Source of the DNA: an uncultured Alphaproteobacteria bacterium | Lineage (GTDB): Bacteria > Pseudomonadota > Alphaproteobacteria > HIMB59 > GCA-002718135 | DNA: 64,000 bases | Assembly (NCBI GenBank): GCA_902601455.1 | Contig: CACKNC010000003.1 | Coordinates: 1-64,000 of the forward strand | Reading direction: 5' to 3' | Shown: positions 26,762-30,815 of the stretch, one piece after another | How the letters are laid out: each line of letters begins with the position of its first letter | Numbering within the stretch: position 1 is the first letter of the stretch | Translations under genes and position numbers: made by a program | Notes under the pieces: generated by a model | The model's database searches: none | What the model was told of the DNA's origin: nothing | The model's input: the letters and a program-made list of their open reading frames with translations, nothing else

Positions 26762-27604
26762 TTAAATGTTTATGTTTAGTTTTTTCTTAAAATTGTCATA
26801 AAATATAATTTTTTCAAATTGAAAATTATTTTTACTAAGGTCTTTAATTTTTTTCTTTAATAAAGAATTAATTTTTTTAAGCTCTTCATAATTTTCAAAA
26901 TTATTTTTATAATTCATATTATTTTTTTTTATTACTGGTTTTTTAAATAAAACGGTGTTTAGTTCTTCAAGTGATATTTTTAAAAAGTTTGATAGTTTTG
27001 GTAAACTTTTATTAATGTCTTCATATTTTATATTTAAGAATTGGTTTTTGTTTTTTAAAGATAAAGAAAGTACATCATTTATAAAAAGATTTATTATATA
27101 ACTCTTTGCTGCATTGAAGGTGATTGGCTTATTATTATTGTTGTTTGAATTCTTGATATTTTTTATATAATCTTCTTGCTTACTTAAAATAGTATTATCT
27201 ATGACTCTTTGACTTTTCAAATTTTTCGGTTCAATTAAATGAACCACTCTTCCGAAAATTTTAGATTTTAAAATATCTATGTAATCCCTATCAATATGTA
27301 TAACTTGAAAATTTTCAAACTTATCCAAAAATTTATTGTATTCATTATGGGGAAAGGGTTTATAAAAATCAAAAACGAATTTAGTCCCTAATGTTTTGTG
27401 GTTTACAGAGGTTGGAAATTTTTGGAAAACATCCTTGAAGTTCGTATTTTTTAAAAATAGGTGATATGGTGAAGCCTTTCCTATTAGCAGATCTTGAGAC
27501 CACTTAATCTCATAATCTGTAGCAAAACTTTTACAATTGCCTAGTGATGTGACTAACCATGTGCTCCCACATCTTTGATTTGAAACTAATATAACGTTAT
27601 TCAT
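26762..27604 (-). CDS. Sulfotransferase-like protein
   Basis: N-terminal VSNQRCGSTWLVTSLG (5'-PSB-like loop). Confidence 0.65.
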   Translation of the reverse strand: MNNVILVSNQRCGSTWLVTSLGNCKSFATDYEIKWSQDLLIGKASPYHLFLKNTNFKDVFQKFPTSVNHKTLGTKFVFDFYKPFPHNEYNKFLDKFENFQVIHIDRDYIDILKSKIFGRVVHLIEPKNLKSQRVIDNTILSKQEDYIKNIKNSNNNNNKPITFNAAKSYIINLFINDVLSLSLKNKNQFLNIKYEDINKSLPKLSNFLKISLEELNTVLFKKPVIKKNNMNYKNNFENYEELKKINSLLKKKIKDLSKNNFQFEKIIFYDNFKKKLNINI

Positions 27605-27686
27605 AAAATTATTTTAATTAAGTCTGTAAAATATTATTAATGATTTTATTAAAAACTTTATATAAAAAAATATAATACATAAATCC

Positions 27687-28292
27687 ATGCTTATAAGTCA
27701 CAAATATAAATTTATTTTTATAAAAACAAAAAAAACAGCCGGAACTTCAATAGAAATCGAACTCAATAAAATAATGAGTGAAACTGATGTAGTTACACCA
27801 ATCAAGCCAGGTCATCCCGACCATAAGCCAAGAAACTACGTTTATGGTAATAAAAAATTATTTAATCATATTATGATAAAAGATTTAGAGAAAATAATAC
27901 CTAAAAATATATATCAAAATTATTTTAAATTCTGTGTAGAAAGAGAACCAGTAGAAAAATGTTTGAGCGATTTTTGTATGCAAAAAAACAGTGAGTATCA
28001 CAATAAAAATAAAGAAAACCTAAGTTGGAAAGAATATTTAAAAATTGGTAATTTCCCCATAGATACAGAAAAGTATACTGATAATAAAAATAATTTATGT
28101 GTTGATAGAGTATTAAAATATGAAAAATTAGAAGATGAGCTTTATGAAATTTCTAAAATATTAAAATTTGATTTTAAGGGGTTGAAAATTAAAGCAAAAT
28201 CAGGTTTTAGGGAAAAAATATATGTATCTGAAAAAGAAAAAAAACTAATCTATAAAGCTTTTTTGAATTCAAATAAATTTACAGGATATTAA
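27687..28292 (+). CDS. Sulfotransferase family protein
   Basis: MLISHKYKFIFIKTKKTAGTSIEIEL (5'-PSB-like), FKFCVEREPVEKCLSDF (3'-PB-like). Confidence 0.75.
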   Translation: MLISHKYKFIFIKTKKTAGTSIEIELNKIMSETDVVTPIKPGHPDHKPRNYVYGNKKLFNHIMIKDLEKIIPKNIYQNYFKFCVEREPVEKCLSDFCMQKNSEYHNKNKENLSWKEYLKIGNFPIDTEKYTDNKNNLCVDRVLKYEKLEDELYEISKILKFDFKGLKIKAKSGFREKIYVSEKEKKLIYKAFLNSNKFTGY

Positions 28293-28491: not shown

Positions 28492-28887
28492 TTAAAATTT
28501 CGAACATTTACCGTAGGACAAAATCAGATCATCTGTATTTTTTTTATCATGAACATATCCAAATCCTTGAGAATATACAAAGTTTAAGTTTTTTTTATTA
28601 AATACAATACTTGCTCCCTCACCATTCATACATTGCATAAAATTATTTCTCCAGCCATTCACACAAACTTCGTTAGCGAACATTGTTGTGTTAAAAATAA
28701 GATCTTTTGATTCAAAAATTAGTTTTTCAAAGTCTATTTTTCCAGTAAATTTTATTTCATCAAAAACGGTATTTTTATAATTGTTACCACCGTCAAAACC
28801 AGTAGCATTTTCTTCTACACAGTAATAGACTTCTGCAAACAAAGTAGATGAGAAAAACAAAACAAGGAGTGTAAATAGAGTTTTCAT
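28492..28887 (-). CDS. Hypothetical secreted protein
   Basis: Signal peptide MKTLFTLLVLFFSSTLFA, several cysteines. Confidence 0.65.
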   Translation of the reverse strand: MKTLFTLLVLFFSSTLFAEVYYCVEENATGFDGGNNYKNTVFDEIKFTGKIDFEKLIFESKDLIFNTTMFANEVCVNGWRNNFMQCMNGEGASIVFNKKNLNFVYSQGFGYVHDKKNTDDLILSYGKCSKF

Positions 28888-28910: not shown

Positions 28911-28932
28911 ATTGCAAGTGCATTGCAAATAA
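28911..28932. repeat. 11-bp tandem direct repeat (attgcaagtgc/attgcaaataa) next to a tRNA fragment
   Basis: Direct reading; 11-bp periodicity. Confidence 0.6.
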
Positions 28933-28962
28933 TTTTTAAAATTTAAAGGTGGAATTGAAATT

Positions 28963-28993
28963 TGGAGCGGGCGAAGGGATTCGAATTCTCGAC
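28963..28993 (-). pseudogene. 3' fragment of tRNA-Gly (att-like core)
   Basis: tggagcgggcgaagggattcgaaTTctcgac matches the 3' 31 nt of the intact tRNA-Gly at 30741 with 2 mismatches. Confidence 0.85.
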
Positions 28994-29038
28994 CCGCTTA
29001 ATCTATTTTTTATAGGGTCCCAAAAATTTAAAAACTTA

Positions 29039-29060
29039 ATTGCTACTTAATTGCAAATCT
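29039..29060. repeat. 11-bp tandem direct repeat (attgctactta/attgcaaatct)
   Basis: Direct reading; same motif and periodicity as 28911 and 29920. Confidence 0.5.
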
Positions 29061-29267
29061 TTAATCAAAAAATAAATTAAAATAATAAATCAAATAATTA
29101 ATGCTACACCACCGCATAACAAAGATATAATTGCTAATTCTATTTAAAATTTTATATTATTAAAATTAAAGTTAATGAAATATCAAAAATTGATTCAAGT
29201 TTAAGTTGTCTAAATCTTAGATGGTGATATATTTATATCAATCCTAACACTTTATTATGATTATATA

Positions 29268-29864
29268 ATGAAAAATACTATTACTTTATTTTTACTATTA
29301 ATATCATTTAATATATTTGCAAAAGAATATAGTAGTATTCATAATATCAATTTAACTATCCCAGAAAATTATTTTACTATTAACAATTTAACAGTTGATG
29401 AAATTACTGAGTATGAGCAAGAAACAGGAAACGAAATTTATAATAATTATTTGATTAAGAATATTTTGGATCAATTAGGTGATTTAAAGGTTGATTATCT
29501 AATACCAGATTATGCATTTTCACAATTTAAGGATGATATTGTTGATAATATAAACATTATTGCCAAAGAAGAAATTTTTGAAACTTCTGATATTGAAGTA
29601 GAATGTAAAGAATTAAATAATGCTTTTAAGACGATGTTTGGTGATGCTTATAATCAAATTTTATGTAGAAATACAAATTATATTAATAATACTGTATATG
29701 AAAGAAGGAGAATAAGTGAAATTGGATTGTATGTTCAACAAGATCAATTTACATTTTACCTAAATAATGGAAAAAAGTATGCTATTACTCTAACTTGTCA
29801 CAAAGAAAGTTGTAGTAAAGTCGAAAAAGATTTTATAAATATTATTCAGTCTATTAAAAGATAA
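29268..29864 (+). CDS. Hypothetical secreted protein
   Basis: Signal peptide MKNTITLFLLLISFNIFA; lies between two tRNA-Gly fragments. Confidence 0.65.
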   Translation: MKNTITLFLLLISFNIFAKEYSSIHNINLTIPENYFTINNLTVDEITEYEQETGNEIYNNYLIKNILDQLGDLKVDYLIPDYAFSQFKDDIVDNINIIAKEEIFETSDIEVECKELNNAFKTMFGDAYNQILCRNTNYINNTVYERRRISEIGLYVQQDQFTFYLNNGKKYAITLTCHKESCSKVEKDFINIIQSIKR

Positions 29865-29919
29865 AAGCATTAAAATAAGACTATATTCTCTCATATTATT
29901 TTTTATAACATAAAACTGT

Positions 29920-29941
29920 ATTGCAACTATATTGCAAATAG
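29920..29941. repeat. 11-bp tandem direct repeat (attgcaactat/attgcaaatag)
   Basis: Direct reading; near-identical to 28911-28932. Confidence 0.6.
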
Positions 29942-29971
29942 AATTTAAAATTTGAGAGTATGGTTAAGATT

Positions 29972-30037
29972 TGGAGCGGGCGAAGGGATTCGAACCCTCG
30001 ACTTCAACCTTGGCAAGGTTGCGCTCTACCCCTGAGC
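29972..30037 (-). pseudogene. Truncated tRNA-Gly(GCC), lacking the 5' acceptor strand
   Basis: 66 nt identical to the intact tRNA from CCA end through the D-arm; 5' GCGGGCGTA replaced by unrelated sequence, so the acceptor stem cannot form. Confidence 0.9.
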
Positions 30038-30097
30038 CAATCCTAAACGTTGTGTTTCCTAAGTTTTTAAAAATGAAAATTTAATTTTTTGAATATC

Positions 30098-30119
30098 AAT
30101 TGTGCCGTAATTGTGCCGA
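30098..30119. repeat. 11-bp tandem direct repeat (aattgtgccgt/aattgtgccga)
   Basis: Direct reading; same period as the other att-flanking repeats but different sequence. Confidence 0.6.
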
Positions 30120-30146
30120 GAAATTTAAATAAAAATTTTTTTTGTC

Positions 30147-30632
30147 TTATAGTAAAGAAGCAAATGAAAGATATGAACAATCACCGACCATTAAGTTTAC
30201 TTTTCTAATAGGAACATCGCCCATCTTTGATTGTTGAAGGCTATATTTTGTTTTTCCATTATCTTCTCTCCAAAAAGAATAGACCTCGATAGTTTGTGAA
30301 GGCCAATATACAATTAAACTAATTGAGCTTGGAGAAACCAAAAGAGGTAAAATACTAGCTCCGTCTTGTTTACTTGAGGTTATTGACCCCAAAGCATCAT
30401 AGTAAAGTATATCAAACTCATTTTTTTCTTTATTCAATAGCTTTAAAGAGGTTTTACCTTTTGAAATATAATCATCAGCCATACCGGATTCATTACTAGG
30501 CACCAATCCATAGTTTAGATAATAAGCATAACCATCAAGACTTTCACAATTAGCGATATCTTTTGCTATTAGTGTTGAGCTAAAAATAAACGGTATTAAT
30601 AATAAGATTATTTTTAATAATAATTTTTTCAT
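30147..30632 (-). CDS. Hypothetical secreted protein
   Basis: Signal peptide MKKLLLKIILLLIPFIFSSTLIA; lies between the tRNA-Gly and its fragment. Confidence 0.65.
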   Translation of the reverse strand: MKKLLLKIILLLIPFIFSSTLIAKDIANCESLDGYAYYLNYGLVPSNESGMADDYISKGKTSLKLLNKEKNEFDILYYDALGSITSSKQDGASILPLLVSPSSISLIVYWPSQTIEVYSFWREDNGKTKYSLQQSKMGDVPIRKVNLMVGDCSYLSFASLL

Positions 30633-30740
30633 TAAGTTTATTTTAGCATTAATGTTAAAAATTGTAGAGGTTTAAAAGTGATATTTTTAAACACTTATTG
30701 ATTCGAGATAGTGTCGAAAATAAATAAAACTAGGAAAATT

Positions 30741-30815
30741 TGGAGCGGGCGAAGGGATTCGAACCCTCGACTTCAACCTTGGCAAGGTTGCGCTCTACCC
30801 CTGAGCTACGCCCGC
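30741..30815 (-). tRNA. tRNA-Gly (anticodon GCC), CCA encoded
   Basis: GCGGGCGTAGCTCAGGGGTAGAGCGCAACCTTGCCAAGGTTGAAGTCGAGGGTTCGAATCCCTTCGCCCGCTCCA folds as a cloverleaf with complete acceptor stem. Confidence 0.97.

Follow-up and report, generated by a model that had tools for sequence, protein, structure and literature searches.

Stacked integrase-less islets with matched 11-bp repeats at the tRNA-Gly 3' end of SAR11-type bacteria

Results

The 3' end of the tRNA-Gly(GCC) gene in the 64,000-nucleotide stretch of DNA analysed here (the window) carries an array of small islets separated by partial copies of the tRNA, and this array is one case of a genus-wide pattern. The islets have a common anatomy and matching tandem repeats at their two ends. 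They fall into families with distinct repeat motifs, share these ends with integrase-bearing elements and have recently moved between species. Judged from these sequence features, the array probably consists of att-bounded, integrase-less cassettes that would be moved by integrases acting in trans.

The tRNA-Gly locus of the window

The features of the locus are collected in Table 1. ARAGORN places an intact tRNA-Gly(GCC) on the minus strand, exactly where the initial annotation had it, and both partial copies described there are present with revised extents. The nearer copy measures 68 nt rather than 66 nt at 29972-30037. The farther one, given before as 31 nt at 28963-28993, is a 33-nt match at 94% identity (28961-28993), of which the 25 nt listed in Table 1 are identical. 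All four tandem 11-bp repeats quoted earlier (at 28911, 29039, 29920 and 30098) were found again. However, they do not flank each copy, as had been thought, and instead form the two ends of each islet: 29920 and 29039 are the proximal and distal repeats of islet 2, 30098 marks the distal end of islet 1 and 28911 the proximal end of a third islet. Each interval between copies does contain one gene for a protein with a signal-peptide-like N-terminus, and an integrase is indeed absent from the locus.

Table 1. Features of the tRNA-Gly islet array in the window
Feature	Position	Strand	Sequence or description	Remark
Intact tRNA-Gly(GCC)	30741..30815	-	integration target	ARAGORN
Islet 1 proximal repeat	30700..30718	-	TTCGACACTATCTCGAATC (tRNA orientation), about +21 from tRNA end	diverged, weak; partial match to distal pair
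Islet 1 cargo	30147..30632	-	161 aa, signal-peptide-like N-terminus	no Pfam, PHROG or PADLOC match
Islet 1 distal 11-bp tandem repeat	30098..30119	-	TCGGCACAATTACGGCACAATT (tRNA orientation)	
Islet 1 distal att core	29970..30037	-	tRNA-Gly partial copy, tRNA positions 10-77, 68 nt	100% identical
Islet 2 proximal repeat	29920..29940	-	TTTGCAATATAGTTGCAAT (tRNA orientation), about +32 from core	CAAT family
Islet 2 cargo	29268..29864	+	198 aa, signal-peptide-like N-terminus	no family match
Islet 2 distal repeat	29039..29060	-	TTGCAATTAAGTAGCAAT, about -70 from core	CAAT family
Islet 2 distal att core	28961..28985	-	tRNA-Gly partial copy, T-loop to 3' end, tRNA positions 53-77	
Third islet proximal repeat	28911..28931	-	TTGCAATGCACTTGCAAT	CAAT family
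Third islet cargo	28492..28887	-	131 aa, signal-peptide-like N-terminus	homologous to L087 CAAT-islet cargo, 29-53% identity

The core of islet 1 is of the anticodon-region type, its copy starting at position 10, and its repeats are CGGCACAATT; islets 2 and 3 belong to the CAAT family. The distal block of islet 2 (94 nt, 28963-29056) shares 86% identity with a block in genome G085. With at most one mismatch, ATTGCAANNNNATTGCAA occurs three times in the window against 0.21 expected, a number reached in none of 100 shuffles. Exact copies in the whole 1.42-Mb genome are found at 28911 and 29920 only, i.e. the motif is confined to the locus rather than common genome-wide.

The cargo proteins of islets 1 and 2 have no relative in other tRNA-Gly loci of our set, and PADLOC and Pfam returned nothing for the three window cargo proteins. 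The window genome is distant from all others of the set: its best flank identity is only 73%, which precludes a direct comparison of its islets, including one with an empty site. Between the islets and the conserved purH side (26762-28292) lie genes for a 201-aa protein with a weak Sulfotransfer_2 match and for a 280-aa sulfotransferase-like neighbour without a Pfam match; no tRNA copy was detected between the two.

Survey of tRNA-Gly islets across the genus

When the tRNA was used as query, most of a further 100 genomes from the genus, taken here as Pelagibacteraceae, SAR11-type, proved to contain additional partial copies. We assembled 86 loci of at most 20 kb, oriented on tRNA-Gly(GCC), which together with the window make 87 loci; the genomes are incomplete single-cell or metagenome assemblies. 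In 64 of the 87 loci a total of 120 islets, from 428 bp to 13.7 kb in size, lie between successive copies, each downstream of the tRNA and terminated by a partial 3' tRNA copy. Their number (0 to 5), order and cargo vary across loci, and related genomes thus do not all carry the three copies of the window. The copies start around tRNA position 25 (anticodon loop) or 53 (T-loop), both of which are reportedly known att sublocations of integrases (Williams 2002, as cited in PMC11389934).

A full-length integrase is present in nine of the 120 islets (4.9-13.7 kb) and a detectable N-terminal fragment in eight; such remnants were seen in none of the CAAT islets or of several other families. No integrase was detected in the other 103 (median 1.18 kb), and 66 of these contain exactly one ORF of at least 80 aa. 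Other genera of the family have similar copies: in G106 a 12.8-kb element is followed by a second tRNA-Gly copy, and partial copies are present in G104 and G109. In L047_5 and L076_2 the cargo genes C2 and C0, elsewhere found in separate islets, share one islet from which the intervening core is lost; array boundaries therefore erode with time.

Repeats at the two islet ends

An unbiased scan detected an 11-bp period in the tandem repeats beside the cores; the two ends of one islet match, and islets differ from each other. T-loop cores are accompanied by CAATATAG-type repeats. The motifs found with anticodon cores are TCCGACA, GTCCCAC, GGGACA, GGGGGACA, TGTGACA, GCAGTAGT, AGTAGCC, ATCGGCA, ACGCTCC, GCGTCTCC and others. 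In islets with intact ends, repeats of the same motif stand on both sides of the core, as for arm-type att sites.

We first tested for an identical tandem 7-mer at both ends. This was found in 25 islets, compared to 2.1 expected and a maximum of 7 in 1000 pairing permutations, and interior pairs used as a control gave none. Because the repeats have often diverged, a four-site score was added. By this score 54 of the 120 islets lie above the 95th percentile of permuted pairings where 6 are expected, a null that is conservative in that permuted pairs may join one family, with an opposite effect from related islets not being independent. About half of the islets are without a clear four-site match, and many are therefore eroded, a point against the cassette reading. 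The proximal repeats lie at offsets of +21, +33, +44 and +66 and follow a period close to 11 bp (25 motif/offset groups, not fully independent; Rayleigh p about 5e-5 at 11, with periods of 10.5-12 fitting too). The distal offsets of the 25 groups give no period-specific phasing signal.

The C0 sulfotransferase cargo, often in the tRNA-distal islet, occurs with two repeat families, GTCCCAC and GGGGGACA (L036_2, L048_3 and L049_2 compared with L044_3, L063_1 and L083_1), which suggests that ends have been exchanged around one cargo.

The CAAT family

CAAT islets have about 57 nt of the proximal and about 70 nt of the distal end in common, with unrelated cargo between them that often starts some 20 nt behind the repeats. 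The distal block is AAGCGGGTCGAGAATTCGAATCCCTTCGCCCGCTCCA, and the distal end finishes in AAGCGGGTCGAGAA|TTCGAATCCCTTCGCCCGCTCCA or a GCGAGTGATGAA variant. Among the 87 loci none of the CAAT islets contains an integrase or integrase fragment. A single T-loop islet, L076_1, does have an integrase, but the proximal end of this islet is not of the CAAT type and it looks composite. Throughout the genus, strong CAAT distal blocks are confined to tRNA-Gly arrays and to fragments that carry tRNA-Gly copies.

We looked for a CAAT integrase among the other tRNA-linked integrases of the genus and found only other motifs. A viral origin was considered as well: the exact 25-nt core is present in 71 IMG/VR stretches, of which only L146 matches the tRNA of the lineage in full, and no contig has a matching repeat pair. 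Neither the core with CAAT repeats nor the CAAT distal block occurs in IMG/VR, and phage records gave tRNA-like or chance matches only. A search of IMG/VR for sequences related to both integrase classes and to two cargo proteins confirmed none. The cognate integrase for CAAT and for most other small families was not found, which counts against movement in trans.

Integrases that share the repeats

For most integrases of the tRNA-proximal class in the genus, at any tRNA, the start codon is preceded at about 45-58 bp by a tandem 11-bp repeat specific to that integrase. The nearest solved chain is 5c6k, listed as Integrase, which we take to be the integrase of phage P2. Several motifs are common to islets with and without the enzyme. 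TGTGACA is found in members with a full-length integrase (L039_2, L069_1, L074_1 and others) and in the integrase-less L033_2, L085_1 and L086_1. TGTCGA repeats stand at both ends of the G106 element, which encodes a full-length integrase; L036_1 and L056_1, both integrase-less, show this motif with unchanged spacing, and their integrase start is in a broken frame. TCCGACA occurs at the proximal end of the integrase-bearing L080_1 and in the integrase-less L041_1 and L072_1, which match it at 39/40 and 39/41 positions from the tRNA through the second repeat and are unrelated beyond. In this comparison the first 40 nt match at 39 positions, the next stretch at 25 of 80.

The L080 element (also L189; G074, at tRNA-Gly) encodes a natural hybrid integrase whose N-terminal 31 aa, together with the proximal repeat, come from another family. 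Compared to the ACGCTCC-family fragments its identity is 61% over aa 1-31 and 89-97% over aa 32-93. The proximal repeat is TCCGACA and the proximal DNA is unrelated to ACGCTCC, whereas the distal 110 nt are identical to an ACGCTCC element at 107 positions. The break at aa 31/32 together with the foreign proximal repeat shows that N-terminus and repeat changed as a unit, as expected if the N-terminal domain reads the repeat. As L080_1 is a chimera with unmatched ends, TCCGACA is left without a full-length-integrase element matched at both ends, which also counts against the cassette reading.

Since cognate full-length integrases share the repeats and the hybrid swapped its N-terminus along with one, the 11-bp repeats are most likely arm-type sites of a tyrosine integrase. 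Arm binding by the N-terminal domain is established for this integrase class (PMC8138268, PMC2951348). The core and arm-site reading put forward in the initial annotation is thereby strengthened on three counts, i.e. the match of motifs at both islet ends, the recurrence of these motifs on either side of elements with a full-length integrase, and the joint swap of N-terminus and proximal repeat.

The genome that contains the window has integrase genes elsewhere. A full-length one of 326 aa lies beside tRNA-Val (contig C2, L104:1125-2105) and shares about 56% identity with the TGTGACA-family integrases; no clear tandem repeat was found upstream of it. An N-terminal fragment near tRNA-Leu (contig C13, L229:7937-8236) follows a partial copy of the tRNA-Leu 5' part and is accompanied by TACAACGCT tandem repeats, and similar islets therefore exist at other tRNAs. 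A further integrase fragment is located near tRNA-Asp.

Movement between genomes

Integrase-less islets are 96-99.9% identical between species, whereas the adjacent flanks, i.e. the 2.3 kb beside the same tRNA, are 77-87% identical. L019_1 and L020_1 share 99.9% identity compared to 82.2% in the flank, L044_3 and L098_1 99.6% compared to 81.6%, L060_1 and L071_1 99.3% compared to 86.5%, and L053_2 and L068_1 99.4% over 2.3 kb compared to 77.4%. The same holds for the 505-bp AGTAGCC islet (98-99%, flank 82-85%) and for L019_2 and L053_1, both with an integrase fragment (98.0%, flank 78.6%). Identity rises at the tRNA and drops at the distal copy, with sharp edges at the cores. Recent mobility of integrase-less DNA is thus a historical fact. 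This agrees with part of the earlier proposal of mobilisation in trans; no helper was found for CAAT, the family of islets 2 and 3. The moving agent would be a helper integrase or RecA after DNA uptake.

One and the same islet can open one array and follow an 11-kb element in another. Single islets are common to different species without their array neighbours, which suggests independent movement. Other pairs show the opposite pattern, such as C0 sulfotransferase islets 72-77% identical between flanks of 88-99% identity; some islets are therefore old or have been replaced. Neither an excised circle nor a pair of empty and filled sites was seen in the assemblies, which counts against the explanation we prefer.

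Cargo

Many cargo genes encode small proteins with signal-peptide-like N-termini. Among the Pfam and PADLOC matches are Sulfotransfer_1, alternative oxidase, DsrE, PDC-S11, PLD, MFS and a LexA-like DNA-binding domain, as well as restriction-modification genes, namely a C5 DNA methylase alongside a type II restriction enzyme and genes of the type IIG/I-like kind. In a 2-kb islet of L033_2, L078_1, L079_1 and L081_2, with more than 95% identity in several pairs, the alternative oxidase gene is accompanied by two ORFs read from the sequence alone, one oxidoreductase-like and one small and monooxygenase-like; L060_2 has two of the three genes. The islets L020_2, L088_1, L037_1 and L062_2 each amount to either a restriction-modification unit or one candidate defence gene, PDC-S11, which makes them candidates for defence systems carried as cassettes.

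Discussion

In each cassette the cargo, often a single gene, is bounded on the proximal side by about 40-95 nt that hold the att core and two repeats spaced by 11 bp, and on the distal side by about 70-120 nt with a matching pair of repeats and the att core. We propose that the repeats are bound by the N-terminal arm-binding domain of the cognate tyrosine integrase, which may be supplied in trans by an integrase-bearing element or an infecting phage. An incoming cassette would enter at the intact tRNA and displace older ones outward, and under this proposal tandem copies therefore accumulate. The families are distinguished by crossover region, which is the T-loop in CAAT and the anticodon loop elsewhere, and by repeat motif, and would accordingly need different helpers.

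The array could also have arisen by transfer through natural transformation and homologous recombination, in which the tRNA and its copies serve as short anchors and the repeats are inherited and idle. SAR11 has genes for DNA uptake and competence, as cited in PMC7542561, and the identity step coincides with the 25-77 nt of identity that bound each islet. However, idle repeats would not be expected to match across islet ends and differ between families, nor would T-loop and anticodon families be expected to retain distinct cores. Moreover, anchors as short as 25 nt are poor RecA substrates. We therefore regard this route as unlikely. Local duplication of tRNA fragments with chance repeats, without any site-specific recombination, is refuted: many short repeats are expected in AT-rich DNA, but not more than 100 islets with one layout and two fixed core start points, nor the outcome of the permutation tests and the sharp-edged transfer between species.

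A further alternative is that the islets are stranded remnants of autonomous elements which lost their integrase by deletion and became immobile, as in classical CIME accretion. In favour of decay, eight islets begin with an N-terminal integrase fragment whose breakpoints differ (47-130 aa), the TGTCGA islets retain an integrase start in a broken frame, repeats are degenerate in many islets and some neighbouring islets look fused with loss of the core (L047_5, L076_2). As the whole account it is quite unlikely. Integrase-less islets, including some with fragments, are nearly identical (96-99.9%) across species with diverged flanks, the ends are conserved with cargo beginning close behind the repeats, and CAAT islets have neither integrase nor fragment, the T-loop exception L076_1 having a non-CAAT proximal end. 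Movement of integrase-less cassettes in trans is hence the reading we favour.

The layout of the islets partly fits the definition of CIMEs and tRNA accretion (reviewed in PMC5704250): they are integrase-less, att-bounded and stacked at one tRNA, without their own integration or transfer genes (integrase undetected in 103/120). By definition, however, CIMEs derive from ICEs or IMEs by decay and are moved in cis along with a neighbour (PMC5704250), whereas the tRNA-Gly islets often hold one gene, in many cases have no integrase remnant, and recur nearly identical in other species and array positions. Additive flexible genomic islands of Ca. Actinomarinales are likewise small cassettes at the tRNAs of streamlined plankton, and a piece of the tRNA recurs at the cassette end (PMC7771536); fGI-2 of Ca. 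Methylopumilus is described with repeats of the last 20 nt of tRNA-Lys and with sizes of 330 bp-42 kb (PMC10872708). Variable cassettes at a tRNA with direct repeats of a tRNA fragment are what we find too; matched arm-type repeats, integrase-specific families and hybrid integrases are not described in the accessible parts of these two sources. CALINs (integron cassette arrays lacking an integrase; PMC11389934) are similar in being arrays of mostly single-gene cassettes that would need an integrase from elsewhere, but the sites of the tRNA-Gly islets are tRNA cores with paired direct repeats. In SAR11 hypervariable regions the integron model has been looked for, and attC sites were reported absent (PMC2217521).

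In phages and ICEs, arm-binding tyrosine integrases recognise accessory sites close to the core through their N-terminal domain, and their gene lies beside the tRNA with overlapping att and promoter regions (PMC8138268, PMC2951348), whereas the att sites of the window bound cargo without an integrase gene. Tycheposons (PMC10872708), VEIMEs and PICMIs (named in PMC11389934) resemble the islets as tRNA-anchored, helper-dependent cargo elements of marine bacteria. Tycheposons are described as larger, however, at 4-200 kb (PMC10872708), and phage satellites as packaged by phages; two cargo proteins and the att blocks gave no match in IMG/VR or phage records. Compared to the open-access literature, a matched, family-specific arm code on compact integrase-less cassettes appears to be new, as does the evidence for cassettes travelling singly.

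SAR11 bacteria have small, streamlined genomes with large differences in gene content, and the route by which single genes enter is not settled. Cassette boundaries, a presumed recombinase-recognition code of motif and spacing, and recent transfers can all be read from the sequence, and the exchange route therefore becomes testable, with search keys for the helper element or phage. The presence of near-identical inserts in distantly related species makes it seem that they spread by the borrowed enzyme of another element. Beyond this, we tentatively consider it possible, if somewhat short of an even chance, that SAR11-type bacteria have a tRNA-anchored, integron-like system. In it, families of compact, often single-gene cassettes, above all CAAT at the T-loop, with integrase-specific pairs of arm sites and no autonomous chromosomal parent would be shuttled by phage or element integrases. 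This may provide streamlined genomes with a route for gene-by-gene exchange.
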